NCBI RefSeq assembly: GCF_029265375.1
Contig: NZ_JAJUJJ010000022.1
Location: 1-43,545, forward strand
Direction: 5' to 3'
From: Nesterenkonia sp.
GTDB taxonomy: Bacteria > Actinomycetota > Actinomycetes > Actinomycetales > Micrococcaceae
Length of the DNA: 43,545 bases
Of this stretch, positions 1,459 to 16,123 are shown one piece after another. A program made the position numbers and the translations under genes. Numbering within the stretch: position 1 is the stretch's first letter; the number at the start of each line of letters is the position of its first letter. Below the pieces are notes generated by a model that was given only the letters and a program-made list of their open reading frames with translations, did not search any database and was not told the origin of the DNA.

Positions 1459-1742
1459 GCTTCCTCCTCGATCCCGAGCCGCTTACGCGCCTCGTCTGCC
1501 GCGGTCGCCTTGTCGATCGTGTCGAGGTCGGCGATGAGCGTGTCGGTGTCGAAGAACTCCCGCGTGTGGCCGTGCCAGTCCGTGTATGTGCGGACGTACG
1601 CGTCCCGGAACCCGTGATGGGTTGCGACCTGCACGAGGGCGTTCTCGTATCGCGCTCGCGTGTCGCTCAGCTGGTTCTCCAACGAGAGGGCCCGCCGTTC
1701 CTCATCCCAAGCTCGCTCCCTGAGCTCTCGCTTGCTGCTCAC
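1455..1742 (-). CDS. Hypothetical phage protein, N-terminal coiled-coil
   Basis: A 95-residue charged protein. Residues 1-40 (RELRERAWDEERRAL...) read as a continuous charged helix suited to a coiled coil, and the C-terminus is acidic. Its ATG overlaps the stop of the 28-codon gene before it (ATGA), and its own stop overlaps the next ATG the same way. No family is recognised. Confidence 0.65.
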   Translation of the reverse strand: MSSKRELRERAWDEERRALSLENQLSDTRARYENALVQVATHHGFRDAYVRTYTDWHGHTREFFDTDTLIADLDTIDKATAADEARKRLGIEEEA

Positions 1743-3477: not shown

Positions 3478-3972
3478 TCAGAACGGCGTCTCGTCCGTGA
3501 ACGAGCCCGCGCCCCAATCGCCCTGTGCGCCCGCCTGCGGGGCGTTCGTGGGCTGGGCGGCGTAGTTGCCCGCGGGAGGCGTGTTCGGCGCTCCCTGGGC
3601 CTGCTGGCCGCTCGCGCGGGTCACGTGCGCGGTCGCGTACCGCAGCGACGGGCCGATCTCCTGCACATCCAGCTCGATCGACGTGCGCTTCTCGCCCTCC
3701 TTCGTCTCGTAGCTCCGCTGTCGGAGGTTGCCCTGCGCGATCACCCGCATGCCCTTCGTCAGCGAACCCGCAACGTTCTCCGCGAACTCACGCCAGACAG
3801 ACGCTCGCAGGAACAGGGCTTCGCCGTCCTTCCACTCGCCCGACGCGCGGTCGAACGTGCGCGGGGTCGAAGCGATCGTGAAGTTCGCCACGGGGACACC
3901 GTTCTGCGTGTACCTGAGTTCCGGATCCGCGGTCAGATTGCCAACCACCGTGATCACTGTTTCGCCTGCCAT
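3478..3972 (-). CDS. ssb: Single-stranded DNA-binding protein
   Basis: A 164-residue SSB. Residues 1-108 carry the OB-fold pattern: the [17 protein letters not shown] strand start, VANFTIAS, a tryptophan in [15 protein letters not shown], and the [17 protein letters not shown] segment. A low-complexity Ala/Gln/Pro/Gly linker follows, ending in the acidic tip D-E-T-P-F that docks partner enzymes. It coats ssDNA during phage replication and RecT-mediated annealing. The ATG overlaps the upstream TAA (TAATG). It belongs with the resolvase, RecT and YqaJ genes of the same operon. The annotation is secure; it is a phage copy, not the chromosomal one. Confidence 0.95.
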
Positions 3973-4145
3973 TACTGCTCCTTGCCGTAGTAGATGCCGT
4001 GGCGCTTCGCGGCCTCGGCGATGATCCCGGAGGGGCGATTCTCGAATCCGTCCTCGTGCCTTGCGGACGGCGTGACGCTGACCGTGATACCCATCGCGGC
4101 GAGCTTCTTCATCTCGCGGTCAACCGCGCTTTCTCCCTTGCCCAT
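3972..4145 (-). CDS. Hypothetical phage protein, 57 aa
   Basis: This frame fills the gap between the resolvase stop (TAG 4148-4146) and ssb exactly: ATG 4145 follows the stop directly and the TAA overlaps the ssb ATG. It reads as two short helices around a beta strand ([10 protein letters not shown]), and ends with a basic, tyrosine-containing helix ([13 protein letters not shown]). No motif is recognised. Its exact fit between two known genes is the main support. Confidence 0.6.
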
Positions 4146-4679
4146 CTACTTCCCTCTCTTCGTGAGCGCCGCGAGGTGCGACGCGGGTAGGTCGTCAATC
4201 GGATGTCCGAGTGACCGTGCGCCGATCGCCGCGAGCACGACGGCATCGGCTTGGTTGTCGTCCGCGATCGAGAACCGCGGATAGTTCGCCCGGACGGCCG
4301 CGAGCACTTCCGACTTGTCAGCACCGCCCCGCCCGGTCGCGTACTTCGCGCGCGTCTTCGGCGGCACCACCATCACCGGGTCGTCGACGAGCGGCGCGAG
4401 CCTCGCAGCGACGGCCCACCAGCCGCCCAGCATCTTCGACCGATGCGCAGACGGGGCATGCGTCACCGGGCCCTCGATCACCACAAGGTCATCCGCATGC
4501 AGGTCCGCCCACGCCTCGATCCGGTCGGCAATGTGCGTGATCCGGCGCGCGATGCCCTCCACCGTGCCGTCGTCCGGCCAGGTGCGGATCGTGCACGTGT
4601 CCACCGCGCCGTCATCGAGATTCAGCCACGCGAGACCCGTCGCAGTCAGCGACCAGTCGACACCGAGGACGCCGGCCAT
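4146..4679 (-). CDS. RuvC-like Holliday junction resolvase
   Basis: A 177-residue RNase-H-fold nuclease starting at ATG 4679 with GAGAGG upstream; a longer frame to 4718 has no ribosome site. Catalytic acidic residues are visible: D in VLGVDWS (about residue 7), E in LVVIEGP (about 70), and the D pair in DDNQADAVVLA near residue 140. A TGRGGADKSEV segment is typical of the family's DNA-binding loop. It resolves four-way junctions made during phage recombination and replication. The gene overlaps the upstream HNH gene by 34 bases. Confidence 0.85.
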   Translation of the reverse strand: MAGVLGVDWSLTATGLAWLNLDDGAVDTCTIRTWPDDGTVEGIARRITHIADRIEAWADLHADDLVVIEGPVTHAPSAHRSKMLGGWWAVAARLAPLVDDPVMVVPPKTRAKYATGRGGADKSEVLAAVRANYPRFSIADDNQADAVVLAAIGARSLGHPIDDLPASHLAALTKRGK

Positions 4680-11265: not shown

Positions 11266-11407
11266 GAAACGCAACGCAGTACGTGCACGCGCACGCCGGA
11301 CACCACCAGTCGAAACCCGGCTCCAACGGGCCGCCCATCTCGCCCGTCCAGACGAGACGACCCCCGCACACCTCACAGTCGACATCCCTGTCCTCCTCAG
11401 TCAGCAA
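11255..11407 (-). CDS. Zinc-ribbon microprotein, 50 aa
   Basis: Reads CEVCGG near residue 11 and, after a tryptophan-rich spacer, CPACACTYC near residue 36: a clean four- to five-cysteine ribbon. The start is uncertain. TTG 11407 overlaps the upstream stop by 11 bases and keeps an acidic leader; no ATG lies in frame. An overlapping ATG 11385 frame has the better ribosome site, so one of the two start choices here is unusual. Likely a nucleic-acid or protein binding accessory. Confidence 0.5.
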   Translation of the reverse strand: MLTEEDRDVDCEVCGGRLVWTGEMGGPLEPGFDWWCPACACTYCVAFRAA

Positions 11408-11552
11408 GGCCACACCACGCCAGAAAGCGCCGCCATCTCGACGGACGCGGCTCCGGCACCCACTCGAGCGCCACATGCTCAGAAGCGGCCCGCGGCATCG
11501 CATCGATACCCGCCGCAGTGAAACTGCCCTCGAAGTCATCGAACGGTTGCAT
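11397..11552 (-). CDS. 51-residue phage protein
   Basis: An ATG preceded by GAAGGAGGAGCA, one of the strongest ribosome sites in the prophage, opens a 51-codon frame. The N-terminus is acidic (QPFDDFEGSF), the middle is neutral, and the C-terminus is basic and aromatic (RPSRWRRFLAWCGLA). It begins a run of coupled genes that leads to the exonuclease. Not recognised as a family. Confidence 0.6.
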   Translation of the reverse strand: MQPFDDFEGSFTAAGIDAMPRAASEHVALEWVPEPRPSRWRRFLAWCGLAD

Positions 11553-11623
11553 TGCTCCTCCTTCGGAAACGAAAAGCGGGACCGGCCAGGGTGCTGCCCC
11601 GAATGTGATTGACCGGCCCCACG

Positions 11624-11671
11624 TCCCCGCGCCCGGACTCGAACCGGGCCGACGCCTTCACGCTCGCGGGG
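11624..11671 (-). ncRNA. tRNA-like minihelix 2 (acceptor stem + T-arm only)
   Basis: On the leftward strand a 7-bp stem (ccccgcg, 11671-11665, with cgcgggg, 11631-11625) abuts a perfect T-arm (cccgg-ttcgagt-ccggg). There are no bases between T-stem and acceptor, exactly as in tRNA, and A follows as the discriminator position. Only 16 bases replace the D and anticodon arms. No upstream segment can complete a normal cloverleaf. It lies in the gap upstream of the 51-codon gene. The function is not known; RNase P and RNase Z recognise this acceptor/T-arm stack in ordinary tRNA precursors. Confidence 0.5.
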
Positions 11672-11772
11672 TGCCCGTTTCCTGCCGACTCGTACGCGCC
11701 CTCCTCGACAGGCATCCACAGATGGGCTTCTGGGAATTGGTGCTCGCCCCCGTATCTCAGGAGGTGCCACCG

Positions 11773-11822
11773 TGCCCCCGGCGCGATTCGAACGCGCACA
11801 CTCCCGACAACGACGCGGGGGC
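11773..11822 (-). ncRNA. tRNA-like minihelix 1 (acceptor stem + T-arm only)
   Basis: Same architecture as the element at 11624-11671. A 7-bp stem (gcccccg, 11822-11816, with cgggggc, 11780-11774) joins directly to a perfect T-arm (gcgcg-ttcgaat-cgcgc) and is followed by A. The linker is 18 bases. It begins nine bases after the stop codon of the gene at 11831-12199. A weak anticodon-like loop (gtcgttg) can be drawn in the linker but needs a mismatched stem and has no matching 5' half. Confidence 0.5.
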
Positions 11823-11830
11823 GATACTGC

Positions 11831-12199
11831 TTACTTGCGGCCTGTTCCCGGCAGTCCGCCCGATACGGAGCGCAGATAGTCGGACACATATGGGTTATCG
11901 CGGCACTCAAGGCTCATCGCACGGATGAATGATCGAGACTCGTCCTTGCTCCCGATCACGCCTGAGCGGTCACGTTCTCGCGCTAGCTCTTCCCAGATGA
12001 ACCGCACCGAGCTATCTATGCCGCCACGCCGCAAGGTTCGCCCTATGAGCTTCGCCATTCGGCCAGGTCGGAAGTTCACGCGGTTCTTCTCGAACACCGC
12101 CGCCGCAGCGATCAATAGTTTGTCTTTCACTTTGCCGTAATCCACGTACTCTCCGAATTCGTTCTGGACATACGTCCGCCCGTCCGCCGCGCTAGCCAT
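11831..12199 (-). CDS. Hypothetical phage protein, 122 aa
   Basis: A 122-residue, mostly helical protein with a good GGAGG before ATG 12199. The segment DKLLIAAAAVFEKNRVNFRPGRMAKLIGRTLRRGG (about 26-60) is basic and could contact nucleic acid, and the C-terminus is Gly-rich. It has no cysteines and no membrane segment. It is isolated from the overlap chain by non-coding gaps on both sides, each holding T-arm-like elements. Accessory genes in this position often act on superinfection or host takeover; the sequence does not say. Confidence 0.65.
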   Translation of the reverse strand: MASAADGRTYVQNEFGEYVDYGKVKDKLLIAAAAVFEKNRVNFRPGRMAKLIGRTLRRGGIDSSVRFIWEELARERDRSGVIGSKDESRSFIRAMSLECRDNPYVSDYLRSVSGGLPGTGRK

Positions 12200-12231: not shown

Positions 12232-12258
12232 TGCGCCCCGGGGAGTCGAACCCCGGCG
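12232..12258 (-). other. T-arm-like hairpin upstream of the 122-aa gene
   Basis: On the leftward strand cgggg-ttcgact-ccccg (12255-12239) forms a 5-bp stem with a seven-base loop of T-loop consensus, followed by gggcgca. No clear 7-bp partner for that 3' segment was found, so only the T-arm is supported. It lies about 35 bases before ATG 12199. Between it and the antirepressor gene (12259-12598) I see the nested repeat at 12439-12556 and no convincing gene. Confidence 0.4.
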
Positions 12259-12438
12259 TAGACCATCAGCGCGCCGCCAGTCATGCCCGGACTGGTCACG
12301 GTCCAGCACCCCTATCCCTCACGGGGTCATCGGTGCTGCCTGTCTTGTACTTCTCTCCACACCCGCGCTCACCACGCCTGCCAAACGGCCAATGCGAACG
12401 GGTACCCATCAGGACTCTGTGTAGTTATTCGCCTCACC

Positions 12439-12556
12439 CGATGGGTCTGCATACCCGCGCGCCTGTGGCTCAGGGGGCCGGATGAGGAATGGGATTTAGT
12501 TGCCGTGCACCCGAAATTGAGCGCACTCGTCCGATCGATGAGCCACAGACCCATCG
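12439..12556 (-). ncRNA. Candidate structured RNA: nested inverted repeat with internal hairpin
   Basis: Two nested stems pair perfectly: 8 bp (12439-12446 with 12549-12556) and 10 bp (12463-12472 with 12539-12548). A 16-base bulge on one side separates them; the other side is continuous. Inside lies a further hairpin (12505-12526). In the leftward transcript it is an 8-bp stem with two G-U pairs and a 6-base loop, while the rightward transcript would have two mismatches. This favours a leftward RNA, the same direction as the phage genes. It starts about 40 bases after the antirepressor stop. Confidence 0.45.
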
Positions 12557-12598: not shown

Positions 12599-13363
12599 CT
12601 ACGACAGCGCGACCTCGCGGAGGCCGAGCTTCCGGCGGATGAAATCGACGCCGGACGGCTGCACCCGAGTCGTGTAGGACGTGCCGCGATCGCCGTTCGA
12701 ACGCTCGTAGTCGAACGCCTTCACCGAGAAGTGCTGCATGTACTGCTGATACGGCGTGTTCCGCATCGCGCCCTTCGCGATGAACACCCCCTCTCCGCGG
12801 AGGCGGTCGAACAGCTTGTTCTGAGACAGACCCAGCATCTTCGCCACGGCACCCACGCTGTACGTCCCGTCAGCATCCATGAACGAGTCGTACGCCTCCA
12901 CCTTCGGGCGGGCTTCCTCGAGCTCATGCTCAGCCTGCTCGGCTCTCCTCGCAGCCTCGGCCGCGAGCTGAAGCATCTTCGACGACGGCAGCTGCGCGAG
13001 CATCTCGACGTCAGCGCCGTACCGTCCCGTGCGGCGGATCGTCGGGAGCACGTCGTGCGCCACCCATCGCTGGAATGCCTTGATCTCTGCACGCCTACGC
13101 TCGTCGGCCATGCGGCCCGTCTGGCGCTGGATGAGTGCCTTGAACAGGCCAGCCTCCGAAACGACCGTCATCGTCTGGTCGCCGCCCGGGGTGGGCACGA
13201 GACGCCCACCCTTCTCGTCGTCGTCCAGGCTGCGGGTCATGTCCTTCGCGACCGCATAGCCGAGAATCGCGGCGACGTCAGCAGCGACGAACCACGGCTC
13301 GCCATCCACCATGACGGTGCGGACCTCGCGCCCGTCGTACCGGAACACATCGAGGGCGCTCAT
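12599..13363 (-). CDS. Phage antirepressor (Bro-N + ANT/KilA-C type)
   Basis: A 254-residue protein starting at ATG 13363, which overlaps the previous stop as ATGA; a longer frame to 13405 is inside the neighbour. Residues 5-105 match the Bro-N domain (VRTVMVDGEPWFVAADVAAILGY..., TMTVVSEAGLFKALIQRQ..., FQRWVAHDVLPTIRRTGRY). A charged coiled linker follows (AAEAARRAEQAEHELEEARPKVEAYDSFMDADGTYSVGAVAKMLG). The C-terminal ANT domain (LFDRLRGEGVF..., YERSNGDRGTSYTTRVQPSG) ends the chain. It probably binds DNA or the repressor to push the phage to lytic growth. Confidence 0.88.
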   Translation of the reverse strand: MSALDVFRYDGREVRTVMVDGEPWFVAADVAAILGYAVAKDMTRSLDDDEKGGRLVPTPGGDQTMTVVSEAGLFKALIQRQTGRMADERRRAEIKAFQRWVAHDVLPTIRRTGRYGADVEMLAQLPSSKMLQLAAEAARRAEQAEHELEEARPKVEAYDSFMDADGTYSVGAVAKMLGLSQNKLFDRLRGEGVFIAKGAMRNTPYQQYMQHFSVKAFDYERSNGDRGTSYTTRVQPSGVDFIRRKLGLREVALS

Positions 13364-13566
13364 CGCGTCTTCCCCGGACGCTCGGTCGGCAGGCTGTCCA
13401 GCCATCTCAGCGCCTCTGCGCGCGTCACGAGCGGCTTCGTACCGAAGTAGTTCGCCACGAGATCCCCCCTCTTGATCGCCTTGTTGATCGAGTCCACCGA
13501 CAGGTCAGTGGCGTCCGAAAGGCTGGGGACCGAATACGAGAGCTTGTCGAGCGTGGCTTCCATCAC
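13360..13566 (-). CDS. Excisionase-like HTH protein, 68 aa
   Basis: A 68-residue protein: the Y-S-V-P-S-L-S-D-A-T-D-L-S-V-D-S-I-N-K-A-I-K segment forms an HTH and is followed by the wing GDLVANYFGTKPLVTRAEALRWLDSL, a layout shared by phage excisionases and helix-turn-helix_17 proteins. ATG 13566 overlaps the Cro-like stop and its own stop overlaps the antirepressor start. As the second gene of the leftward lytic operon it may direct excision together with the integrase, or simply regulate DNA. Confidence 0.7.
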   Translation of the reverse strand: MMEATLDKLSYSVPSLSDATDLSVDSINKAIKRGDLVANYFGTKPLVTRAEALRWLDSLPTERPGKTR

Positions 13567-14273: not shown

Positions 14274-14640
14274 GGGACGCAGCTACGACCCGTGGGAGCA
14301 TGCTGACCAGCTCGGCATCGAGGTTGTAGTGAGACGCCTCCGCACCGCCAACGGCAGATGGTTCCCCGACTACCGGCAGATCCTCATCAGCGACCGACTC
14401 CGCCCGGGACAGCAGCGCCTCGTCCTCGCGCACGAACTCGGCCACGGCGCTCTCGGGCATCCCGACGACCGCCCCAAACACGAGAAACAGGCCGACCAGT
14501 TCGCGGCCCGGAATCTCATCGATCCGGACGAACTGGCCGACCTGTATAAGTGGTGCCCCGACGAGGGGCGGCTCATTCAAGAGCTGGGCGTGTCGCGCCG
14601 GCTACTGCGCGCGTACGTTCTTTCTCAGCCTTCGATATGA
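14221..14640 (+). CDS. ImmA/IrrE-family metalloprotease
   Basis: A 139-residue zinc protease. The GTG at 14221 has GGAGG eight bases upstream and lies inside the repressor gene. The catalytic motif is RLVLAHELGHGALGH (the HExxH core near residue 63), with a further acidic residue in EKQADQFAARNLI and a C-terminal RLIQELGVSRRLLRAYV. By analogy with ICEBs1 ImmA it cleaves the repressor after DNA damage and so triggers induction. It ends 68 bases inside the convergent integrase gene. Confidence 0.88.
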   Translation: MQRTPTQNTRKTSQTPRRGRSYDPWEHADQLGIEVVVRRLRTANGRWFPDYRQILISDRLRPGQQRLVLAHELGHGALGHPDDRPKHEKQADQFAARNLIDPDELADLYKWCPDEGRLIQELGVSRRLLRAYVLSQPSI

Positions 14641-15826
14641 GTTCGGAGAGCATGCCCATCGCGTCCTGGAGGCGCTCCCGGTTGCGGAGGGACTTGTAGC
14701 CGCGAGTGACGAGCCGCGACGAGTGCCCGAGGATCTCCTGGATGAGGTCTTCGGGCACGCCTGCCAGATAGAGCAGGTCTGCCGCCGTGTGTCGCAGGCC
14801 GTGCAGCACGACATCACGCTGAATGCCTGTCTCGGCGAGCACGGACTTCCACGCGCGCGTGTCGGCGTCCGGGTCGAGCGGCTCGCCATCCGGGCGCGTG
14901 AACACCAGCCCGTACTTGTTCGGCTCGGCGTTCTGGATATGCCGCTCGAGGATCGTCTTGAGCGGGTCGACGAGGGGGATGATGCGCCACCCCGCGCTCG
15001 ACTTCGGGCGCGTGAGATAGAGCCCGCCAGTGAGGTGTCGATACTGGAAGTCCGCCGGCACTTTGAGCGTACGATCCGGGCAGTAAGCCGCGTACTTCCG
15101 TCCGCACACGCCGCCGCACCCGTGTCGCCAGGTGAGGCGCTGCAACTGCCAGGACAAGTCGAGTTCGTCACCGACTCGATCGAGTTCGAGCCCGAGGGCC
15201 TCGCCGCGTCGGGCACCTGTCAACAGCGCGAGCGCCCACCGCGCACCGAGCGGGTCATGCGCGACATGGGACAGGACACTGAGCGCTTCATCGACCGTGA
15301 ACGCCTCGAGCGTCTTCGTGCCCTTACGGGGCGCATCCATCATCTTGGCCGGGTTGCGCCCGATCCGCCCCTCGCGCATCGCGATCTCGAACGATCGCGA
15401 CATGACACGATGCGCGTTCAGCGCGAACGTCGACGAGAGGTTCTTCTCCTGTGTGATGCGGTCATGGACCCTCCTGATGGTCGCGGGGGTGATCTTGTCA
15501 AGCTTCGTCTTCGGCCCGAGTCCCGGCACAATGTGGTTCGTCACCACAGACCGGTATCCCGCTAGAGTCTTCGGCCGCACTGATTGTGCGGCGATGTTGT
15601 CGAGCCAGTATGCGAACCACTGCTCGACGCTGGTTCCTGCCGTGGGAAGGTCGCCGCGCTCTTCGAGGTCGCGCTGGACCTTCTTGAGCTTGTCGACAAC
15701 GACCTTCTTGTCGGCGCTGCGGATGACCTTGCGCCGTCGCTTGCCGTCATGGCTCGGCAGTTCGATGGTCGCTGTCCAGAGGCCGCGGGAGTCTTTGAAG
15801 ATCGACCCTTCGCCCTTGCCCCTCAT
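14573..15826 (-). CDS. int: Tyrosine-type phage integrase
   Basis: A 417-residue integrase. It has an N-terminal arm-binding region (GSIFKDSRGLWTATIELP), a core-binding helical domain (about 65-165), then the catalytic domain. The active-site set is R207 (TGARRGEAL), H342/R345 (HGLRHT), H368 (GHSSR) and the nucleophile Y377 (TRGYKSL). A cysteine-rich insert (RHGCGGVCGRKYAAYC, about 234-249) may bind zinc, as in other actinophage integrases. It catalyses recombination between attP and the tRNA-Phe site just to the right. The ATG overlaps the stop of a tiny upstream frame (ATGA). Confidence 0.95.
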   Translation of the reverse strand: MRGKGEGSIFKDSRGLWTATIELPSHDGKRRRKVIRSADKKVVVDKLKKVQRDLEERGDLPTAGTSVEQWFAYWLDNIAAQSVRPKTLAGYRSVVTNHIVPGLGPKTKLDKITPATIRRVHDRITQEKNLSSTFALNAHRVMSRSFEIAMREGRIGRNPAKMMDAPRKGTKTLEAFTVDEALSVLSHVAHDPLGARWALALLTGARRGEALGLELDRVGDELDLSWQLQRLTWRHGCGGVCGRKYAAYCPDRTLKVPADFQYRHLTGGLYLTRPKSSAGWRIIPLVDPLKTILERHIQNAEPNKYGLVFTRPDGEPLDPDADTRAWKSVLAETGIQRDVVLHGLRHTAADLLYLAGVPEDLIQEILGHSSRLVTRGYKSLRNRERLQDAMGMLSELISKAEKERTRAVAGATRPALE

Positions 15827-16065: not shown

Positions 16066-16115
16066 GCGTTCGACTGAAAATCGAAAGGTCACCGGATCGA
16101 CGCCGGTCGGAGCCA
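16066..16115 (+). tRNA. tRNA-Phe 3' fragment, prophage attachment site
   Basis: The fragment holds the anticodon stem-loop ttcga-ctgaaaa-tcgaa (anticodon GAA), a five-base variable loop, a T-arm and the 3' acceptor strand cggagcc plus A. The matching 5' half (acceptor ggctccg and D-arm) is absent from this side. The T-loop reads atcgacg instead of ttcgann, as expected once the copy is released from selection. The other half, made whole by phage sequence, should lie at the far left end outside the window. The core crossover lies within this fragment. Confidence 0.8.
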
Positions 16116-16123
16116 CCGCACTG

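Follow-up and report, generated by a model that had tools for sequence, protein, structure and literature searches.

MascRNA and menRNA (Rfam RF01684) are tRNA-like RNAs composed of an acceptor stem and a T-arm that are processed from long transcripts, namely vertebrate nuclear lncRNAs. In plant mitochondria, RNase P and RNase Z are described as cutting structures called t-elements, which lie at the borders of messages (PMC11658184). The substrate determinants of RNase P set out in PMC11143913 include the 12-bp helix of acceptor and T-arm that serves as a ruler, a contact with the T-loop, and interference at G19, G53, A58 and G71, together with pairing of R73C74C75 with the P15 loop and protein contacts with leader positions -8 to -3. 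According to the same source, hairpins consisting of acceptor, T-stem and T-loop are cleaved by RNase P at the right site (PMC11143913).

We analysed a window of 43,545 nucleotides (the whole stretch of Nesterenkonia sp. DNA presented above), in which the first-pass annotation had described two tRNA minihelices. Both were confirmed, and both are on the minus strand, which that annotation had left unstated. E2 (11773-11822) is a complete minihelix with its acceptor formed by 11816-11822 and 11774-11780, its linker at 11798-11815 and its T-arm at 11781-11797. Read on the minus strand from 11822 to 11773, it consists of GCCCCCG, an 18-nt linker, the T-stem strands GCGCG and CGCGC enclosing the loop TTCGAAT, CGGGGGC and the discriminator A at 11773, next to which is a C at 11772. 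E1 (11624-11671), likewise complete, pairs 11665-11671 with 11625-11631 in its acceptor, has its linker at 11649-11664 and its T-arm at 11632-11648, and reads from 11671 to 11624 as CCCCGCG, a 16-nt linker, CCCGG and CCGGG around the loop TTCGAGT, CGCGGGG and the discriminator A at 11624, with a C at 11623 next. All 24 pairs of the two elements (7 acceptor and 5 T-stem pairs each) are Watson-Crick. A degenerate third element, E3 (12232-12274, minus strand), was absent from the first-pass annotation and is located one gene upstream of E2. It combines a perfect T-arm (12239-12255) with a 6-bp acceptor (12269-12274 with 12233-12238) that contains one mismatch, has an A discriminator at 12232 followed by a C, and scored 16.6, 27 and 34.7 bits with the covariance models R1, R2 and R3, respectively. 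A T-arm scan of the whole window returned five arms, those of a tRNA-Ala, of a stretch at 4430 on the plus strand and of E1, E2 and E3, the last three being clustered inside 624 bases of the minus strand. Across the host genome (2.7 Mb), E1, E2 and E3 were the sole R3 matches at E ≤ 0.1 among the 150 of 4068 first-look candidates that were scored.

ARAGORN called two tRNAs in the window and none at E1, E2 or E3, and the single Rfam match in the window at gathering score was the tRNA-Ala, with nothing at E1-E3. As judged by both programs, the three elements fail to form the cloverleaf of a canonical tRNA, being without D arm and anticodon arm; a full tRNA overlooked by the scanner was thus ruled out, and the earlier statement that no cloverleaf can be completed holds. 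At 351-432 on the minus strand, the prophage carries a tRNA-Leu(CAA) in which inspection by eye shows one mismatch in the acceptor and an unusual T-loop.

The elements belong to the leftward early operon of the prophage, on the minus strand; the prophage integrase gene is at 14573-15826. The order on the minus strand is a phage antirepressor gene with BRO-N and KilAC domains (12599-13405, minus), which is the gene upstream of the E3 junction, a gap of 400 nt that contains E3 towards its end, an orphan gene of 122 aa (11831-12199, minus), E2, about 100 nt, E1, and a 51-aa gene with a Shine-Dalgarno sequence (11397-11552, minus) that starts 71 nt downstream of E1. The stop codon of the 122-aa gene is 8 nt before E2, and searches of phages, viral contigs, genomes of the genus, PHROGs and Pfam yielded no relative of this gene. 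A non-coding block of ~36 nt (12275-12310, minus) abuts E3 upstream. The 400-nt gap also contains, upstream of E3 at 12440-12555, a long inverted repeat in which GATGGGT occurs two or three times.

The nearest relative found was the viral contig L087, which carries, by eye, an integrase and a repressor gene, an E3-like element (2370-2424), a 182-aa gene, an E2-like element and a short gene. Its E2-like element has an identical 18-nt linker and one T-loop change, the non-coding block abutting E3 is nearly the same by eye, and a 65-aa gene at the equivalent place is similar by eye to the 51-aa gene. Since the 182-aa gene replaces the 122-aa gene between like elements, the elements stay while the enclosed gene changes. 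By eye, E2 could also be taken for the 3' half of a tRNA whose anticodon loop is Thr-like; this reading was dropped because 8 nt separate the end of the preceding gene from the acceptor and because the element is retained in L087. E1-E3 were likewise rejected as an attachment site, for which a probable prophage tRNA half near 16.07 kb, past the integrase gene, was found instead; at 16068-16117 on the plus strand it is, by eye, a 3' tRNA-Phe half and probably the prophage attachment site.

Two 7-bp matches at tRNA spacing had been judged unlikely by chance, and dinucleotide shuffles of the entire window (linker 8-30) bear this out. With the strict loop TTCGANT, none of 1000 shuffles contained any element, compared with 2 observed, which ruled out a chance origin of E1 and E2; with a loose loop, at least one element occurred in 4 and at least two in 1 of 1000 shuffles, where 2 were again observed. 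Minimum-energy folding, a weak test taken alone, gave z = -2.0 for E1 and -1.3 for E2 relative to shuffles, and the minimum-energy fold of E2 differs from the minihelix.

The family to which these elements belong was recovered by pattern and covariance searches of viral contigs as well as named phages. Applied to 395 genomes from the host family, with 15 candidates scored per genome, a covariance model built from E1 and E2 (R1) returned 36 rows in 30 loci, 2 of which were the window's own, and 24 of the 28 others overlapped ARAGORN tRNAs. On inspection by eye, three more (L015, L025 and L027) were put down to chance, having imperfect stems, lying in coding sequence or lacking a T-loop, and L017 was a deleted tRNA; R1 therefore revealed no second copy in the 395 genomes at this depth of scoring. 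That R1 finds almost solely real tRNAs besides the window's own elements cautions that the pattern can be mimicked by anticodon stems of tRNAs. The L017 sequence (1501-1552, minus strand), in a long tRNA array of genome G325, has an acceptor, a D-like arm and a T-arm without an anticodon arm, and a second tRNA array of this genome (L023) has a tRNA-Leu(CAA) beside a tRNA-Met.

The GC-only pattern GCCC...GGGC was found in 15 viral contigs and its GGGG form in one more. The acceptor showed 7/7 pairs at the pattern's own register in 10 of the 15 contigs, and L088 had 7/7 at the adjacent register. Matches that proved to be tRNA-Leu (L086) or tRNA-Ala (L095 and L341) were dropped, while L081 2735-2784 was retained despite an ARAGORN tRNA-His call over 91 nt, no matching 5' acceptor being seen. 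The GCCCCCG form in genome contigs gave two stretches, one tRNA-Ala and one minihelix; the latter, in the Microbacteriaceae bacterium PS02066, lies downstream of a gene that is, by eye, an antirepressor gene. Two wider patterns, which leave three T-stem pairs unforced, matched 105 and 50 stretches of the viral contigs; the 152 new loci yielded 165 unique matches, 25 of which overlap an ARAGORN tRNA. Among the 140 others, the full T-stem was present in 121, the full 6-bp acceptor in 106 and both in 94 (83 distinct), and the 46 that failed the combination of T 5/5 and acceptor 6/6 were excluded.

At E ≤ 0.1, R3 detected 17 elements in the Gordonia phage VanLee, 2 in PSonyx, 1 each in Sheen, SWU2, Sebastisaurus, phiGD24-3 and prophiT49-3, and 3 in the host genome. 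The 60-kb contig G407 contained eleven matches, all on the same strand, and positive records other than VanLee and G407 had one to four matches each. No R3 match was found in 11 of the 20 phage records (T4, lambda, phiC31, GBSV1, Rey, Bane2, YungMoney, Clown, Phayonce, Piccoletto and ValentiniPuff), and weak matches occurred in Aegeus (a tRNA-Gln by ARAGORN) and PMBT6 (nature unclear). The seven positive phages came from eight picked via BLAST pointers, so these counts give no estimate of prevalence. Among 396 genomes of the phylum, searched at E ≤ 0.001 with 15 candidates scored per genome, three had matches: the window's own genome, a 9.7-Mb genome with one element of the commonest type (L340), and one with a tRNA-Ala.

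No Rfam family matched, and no account of such a family was found in the literature, our coverage of papers being incomplete. In the stretches viewed, the annotation tables of VanLee, Sheen, SWU2, Sebastisaurus and PSonyx list no feature at the elements; the VanLee announcement reports one tRNA and is free of the words 'repeat', 'intergenic', 'stem', 'noncoding' and 'gap' (PMC8320454). We would place E1-E3 among the tRNA-like processing elements, a general kind that is already known, as a family that has, so far as could be seen, gone unnoticed.

The pairing of the family is maintained by compensatory change. In an alignment of 18 rows (A5), 99.1% of the cells were paired and two-sided changes occurred in 11 of 12 pairs, which was reached by 0 of 500 shuffles; A5, and hence model R2, includes one row that ARAGORN called an odd tRNA (L080 9130). 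In the larger alignment A8, comprising 54 elements from 22 sources searched, 97.2% of the pair cells were standard and 142 two-sided changes were counted, compared with 41.1 in shuffles and 36-46 in slid versions, and 0 of 500 shuffles reached any of the pairing measures. Both alignments were fitted to the structure of the model, which biases the counts of pairs in its favour, and several of the G407 rows nearly repeat one another. A comparison unaffected by either circumstance is that of the Sheen and SWU2 elements, in which 10 of the 11 differences make up five compensated pairs, the remaining one being a variable T-loop base, and the 11-nt linker ATGGTCGCAGG is identical. The downstream genes of these two phages are 59% identical, and no match was found between the upstream genes compared. 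The loss of pairing in related phages, named earlier as an outcome that would speak against the minihelices, was not seen in this pair or in the L087 element. The family is a structured RNA under selection with the shape of a tRNA top half, located at gene junctions, and the acceptor and T-arm shape without D stem or anticodon arm proposed in the first-pass annotation was right.

Family members measure ~40-55 nt. An acceptor of 6-7 bp, or of 5 bp in certain elements, stacks on a 5-bp T-arm whose T-loop is canonical, and a short linker takes the place of the D and anticodon arms; VanLee-type elements frequently lack the pair at the seventh acceptor position. The features of canonical tRNA present in the family are the tRNA-type T-loop, G53-C61, the discriminator and C74. 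In A8, the last T-stem pair, G53-C61 in tRNA numbering, was G-C in 54 of 54 elements, the discriminator, which is inside the model, was always a purine (A in 42 and G in 12), and C74, outside the model, was present in all 54. T-loop A58 is part of the search motif and does not count as independent evidence. Position 75 was G in 30, T in 14, A in 7 and C in 3, and N-1 was A in 28 and T in 5 of the 54. Distinct full phage tRNAs from 198 viral loci had C74 in 162 of 183 cases and the whole CCA in 25 of 183; for those in loci of over 58% GC, the corresponding numbers were 65 and 13 of 66. Because the full tRNAs of the same loci share the habit of C74 without CCA, the minihelices seem built for the same handling as phage tRNAs.

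The linker was 10-12 nt long in 51 of 82 distinct pattern matches (L290 left out) and 16-18 nt in E1 and E2, and the commonest linker was 10 nt, reading A-TGGTCGCAGG. It contained GG in 82 of the 83 distinct matches, where shuffled linkers gave a mean of 69.6 and a maximum of 78 in 2000 rounds; in 23 of the 32 linkers of 10 nt, GG occupied one fixed pair of positions, which it did in 4.9 on average and 12 at most after shuffling. The linker GG may be the counterpart of D-loop G18-G19, which docks on the T-loop in tRNA.

The location at phage operon junctions, as the first-pass annotation had it for the window, was right, and elements of VanLee and of other records lie at gene junctions too. 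A stop codon was detected 4-12 nt upstream in 27 of 54 A8 elements and 43 of 81 distinct pattern matches (L290 left out). By an admittedly crude test, an ORF of at least 60 codons ended 2-15 nt upstream in 47 of the 81 testable distinct matches, compared with 66 of 1640 random positions, and an ORF end was near, by the rule used, in 48 of 54 A8 elements. Thirteen of the 16 GC-pattern contigs are represented in A8, and in ten of them the element starts 3-10 nt past a detected stop codon. Of the same-strand gaps in the VanLee right arm, 17 measure at least 60 nt, and 16 of them contain an element, which none of the 14 shorter gaps does. None of these 16 elements is inside an annotated gene, and the seventeenth VanLee element is outside the examined stretch. 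By eye, the minihelix in the VanLee gaps is usually followed by a second hairpin and a CACCCAAC-GAAAGGAG-like leader, a loose form of the leader motif being present in 15 of the 16 gaps. The VanLee copies share little primary sequence, and several of the G407 copies are nearly identical.

Contrary to the junction rule, the element of the Mycobacterium phage phiGD24-3 (L142 3744-3789) is enclosed by annotated gene 84 (3676-4101). The gene found at this place in prophiT49-3 begins past the element, and gene 84 may have been annotated with too early a start. In the Corynebacterium phage PSonyx (L148 9983-10023), a minihelix lies 42 nt before an RtcB-like RNA ligase gene. An ATG is present within ~10 nt of the discriminator in L189, L214, L234 and L252, so near that a cut there would leave an almost leaderless message. 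At a similar type of junction in the Mycobacterium phage Bane2, between genes 88 and 87 (L146 ~3547-3617), there is an unannotated full-length tRNA-like fold with an acceptor, a D arm, a T-arm and, by eye, a tiny loop in place of the anticodon loop.

Judged from sequence, the most likely reading is that host RNase P cuts the message at the elements, to which we assign a probability of roughly 55%, with a role at 3' ends second and a plain barrier third. We prefer it because the family keeps most RNase P determinants, together with a short leader and the C74 habit. On this proposal, the elements would be carried in polycistronic phage messages, often between a stop codon and the next ribosome-binding site, and host RNase P would bind them as minimal substrates, with the T-loop at its S domain, the 12-bp helix as a ruler and R73-C74 in contact with its P15 loop. 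The enzyme would cut immediately 5' of the acceptor, possibly joined by a 3' tRNA nuclease that cleaves past the discriminator. The message would in this way be split into units of separate genes, each with ends and a stability of its own. Headless tRNAs would thereby act as phage punctuation, as mitochondrial tRNAs and t-elements do.

The host carries a type A RNase P RNA (309 bits), and the elements have what is expected of a minimal substrate in the ~12 bp from T-loop to 5' end, the T-loop, G53 and C74. A stop codon 4-12 nt upstream leaves a leader that matches the contact span of the RNase P protein. The full RCC(A) 3' motif of a minimal substrate is lacking, and with C75 unconserved and CCA absent, one known RNase P contact is weak. 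Model RNase P substrates have U at N-1, unlike the A8 elements with their prevailing A, which counts against cleavage by RNase P. So do the roughly half of the elements without a detected stop codon 4-12 nt upstream, the plain stem-loops of Rey, the in-gene element of phiGD24-3, the 11 phage records without a match and the weak folding of E1 and E2. The interpretation in the first-pass annotation is partly supported as a whole, its guess of RNase P processing or of binding of a tRNA enzyme agreeing with most of the conserved features; the acting enzyme is one that we infer.

An unlikely but still serious rival is that the elements form tRNA-like 3' ends, with RNase Z or a similar enzyme cutting after the discriminator, CCA perhaps being added, and the resulting cap shielding the upstream message from 3' exonucleases while the 5' side stays uncut. 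The invariable purine discriminator and C74, shared with most full tRNAs in these viral loci, and the frequent position directly past stop codons would suit such a role, for which plant mitochondrial t-elements, described as CCA-tailed and uncharged, are a precedent (PMC11658184). However, stop-to-acceptor spacing, G1-C72, G53 and the 12-bp ruler fit 5' cutting equally, and nothing singles out 3' cutting.

Somewhat less probable is a plain barrier, in which a strong fold between stop codon and Shine-Dalgarno sequence keeps ribosomes from reading on or blocks nucleases, with no tRNA enzyme involved. The similar gaps of the cluster M phage Rey hold ordinary stem-loops followed by a conserved ribosome-site repeat, stem-loops upstream of CR3/CR4 are reported in PMC7953290, and the trailing second hairpin of many VanLee minihelices (by eye) points the same way. 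A barrier, however, would need no T-loop, G53-C61, linker GG, purine 73 or C74, all of which are conserved. We regard as improbable the possibility that the elements are decoys or sponges, present in many copies per message, for a tRNA-binding enzyme or a tRNA-targeting host defence. An intact top half without anticodon is what would be expected of a decoy for an acceptor- or elbow-binding protein, and VanLee with 17 copies and G407 with 11 would supply the number, but the other positive records hold one to four matches and a sponge needs no placing at gene junctions.

Boundaries at the DNA level, that is, recombination sites for swapping gene cassettes, are very improbable and already disfavoured. 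Although in L087 a gene of 182 aa, and not the 122-aa gene, is flanked by the E3- and E2-like elements and the nearly identical G407 copies would give homology, the low primary sequence similarity among the VanLee copies and the selection on RNA pairing speak against them, compensatory change having kept the RNA pairs and not the DNA sequence. Decay of phage tRNA genes after deletion of the D and anticodon arms, for which the clear deleted tRNA of L017 and the mimicry of the pattern by ordinary tRNAs in 24 of 28 non-self R1 loci could be cited, is barely credible given compensated changes around an unchanged linker in orthologous elements, stems that stay near-perfect in an array whose copies are unlike, regular occurrence at the ends of genes and C74 in 54 of 54.

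Returning to cleavage by host RNase P, we see about even odds that actinobacterial phages of several host genera use anticodon-less tRNAs as genome-wide mRNA punctuation read by this enzyme. In the fullest case, if true, one headless tRNA at nearly each spaced junction would yield separately stable gene messages, a bacterial-virus counterpart of mitochondrial tRNA punctuation reduced to the part read by the enzyme. The elements have been passed over despite the heavy annotation of phage genomes. If they are cutting marks, they would offer a direct handle on the level and life of each early phage message and a natural library of minimal substrates, with varied stems, for RNase P or another tRNA enzyme. 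They would also be a reminder that top halves of tRNAs can escape tRNA finders or be given wrong names by them. Since phages with elements grow on laboratory hosts such as Mycobacterium smegmatis, the question can be tested immediately.

Among known systems, mascRNA/menRNA shares the acceptor and T-arm architecture, and E3 is a weak Rfam match to it (18.4 bits, E 3.4) that does not reach the RF01684 gathering score of 42.5 bits, E1 and E2 being unlisted at E ≤ 5. At many right-arm junctions of cluster M phages, the conserved ribosome-site repeat (CR3/CR4) is likewise preceded by a structure that follows the stop codon, but this structure is a plain stem-loop. No minihelix with a tRNA-type T-loop was found in the right-arm gaps of Rey, by reading and R2, or in its whole record with R3. 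In this Mycobacterium phage (L149 12500-24000), many stop-to-start gaps hold plain stem-loops and then a CACACGGAGAAGGGA-like repeat, in the position that the minihelix occupies at its junctions. We know of no recurrent tRNA-minihelix family at gene junctions in connection with C4 RNA or the operon mRNAs of Escherichia coli. The C4 antisense RNA of phages P1/P7 and these operon mRNAs resemble the elements as phage or polycistronic non-tRNA RNase P substrates, going by titles cited in PMC11143913. Minimal RNase P model substrates, hairpins such as AT1, have the same 12-bp coaxial helix, T-loop and C74 (PMC11143913), but are laboratory constructs, whereas the phage elements are natural, conserved and equipped with a GG-bearing linker. 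The likeness to t-elements, as these are described in PMC11658184, lies in tRNA-like structures at message borders, with CCA unencoded and no role in translation; for the phage elements such a placing was found, with the single message inferred from strand and spacing. T-elements, as portrayed there, are homologous to tRNA genes and have a typical tRNA-like fold, whereas the phage elements are without D stem and anticodon arm, belong to bacterial viruses and can form arrays at successive gene junctions.
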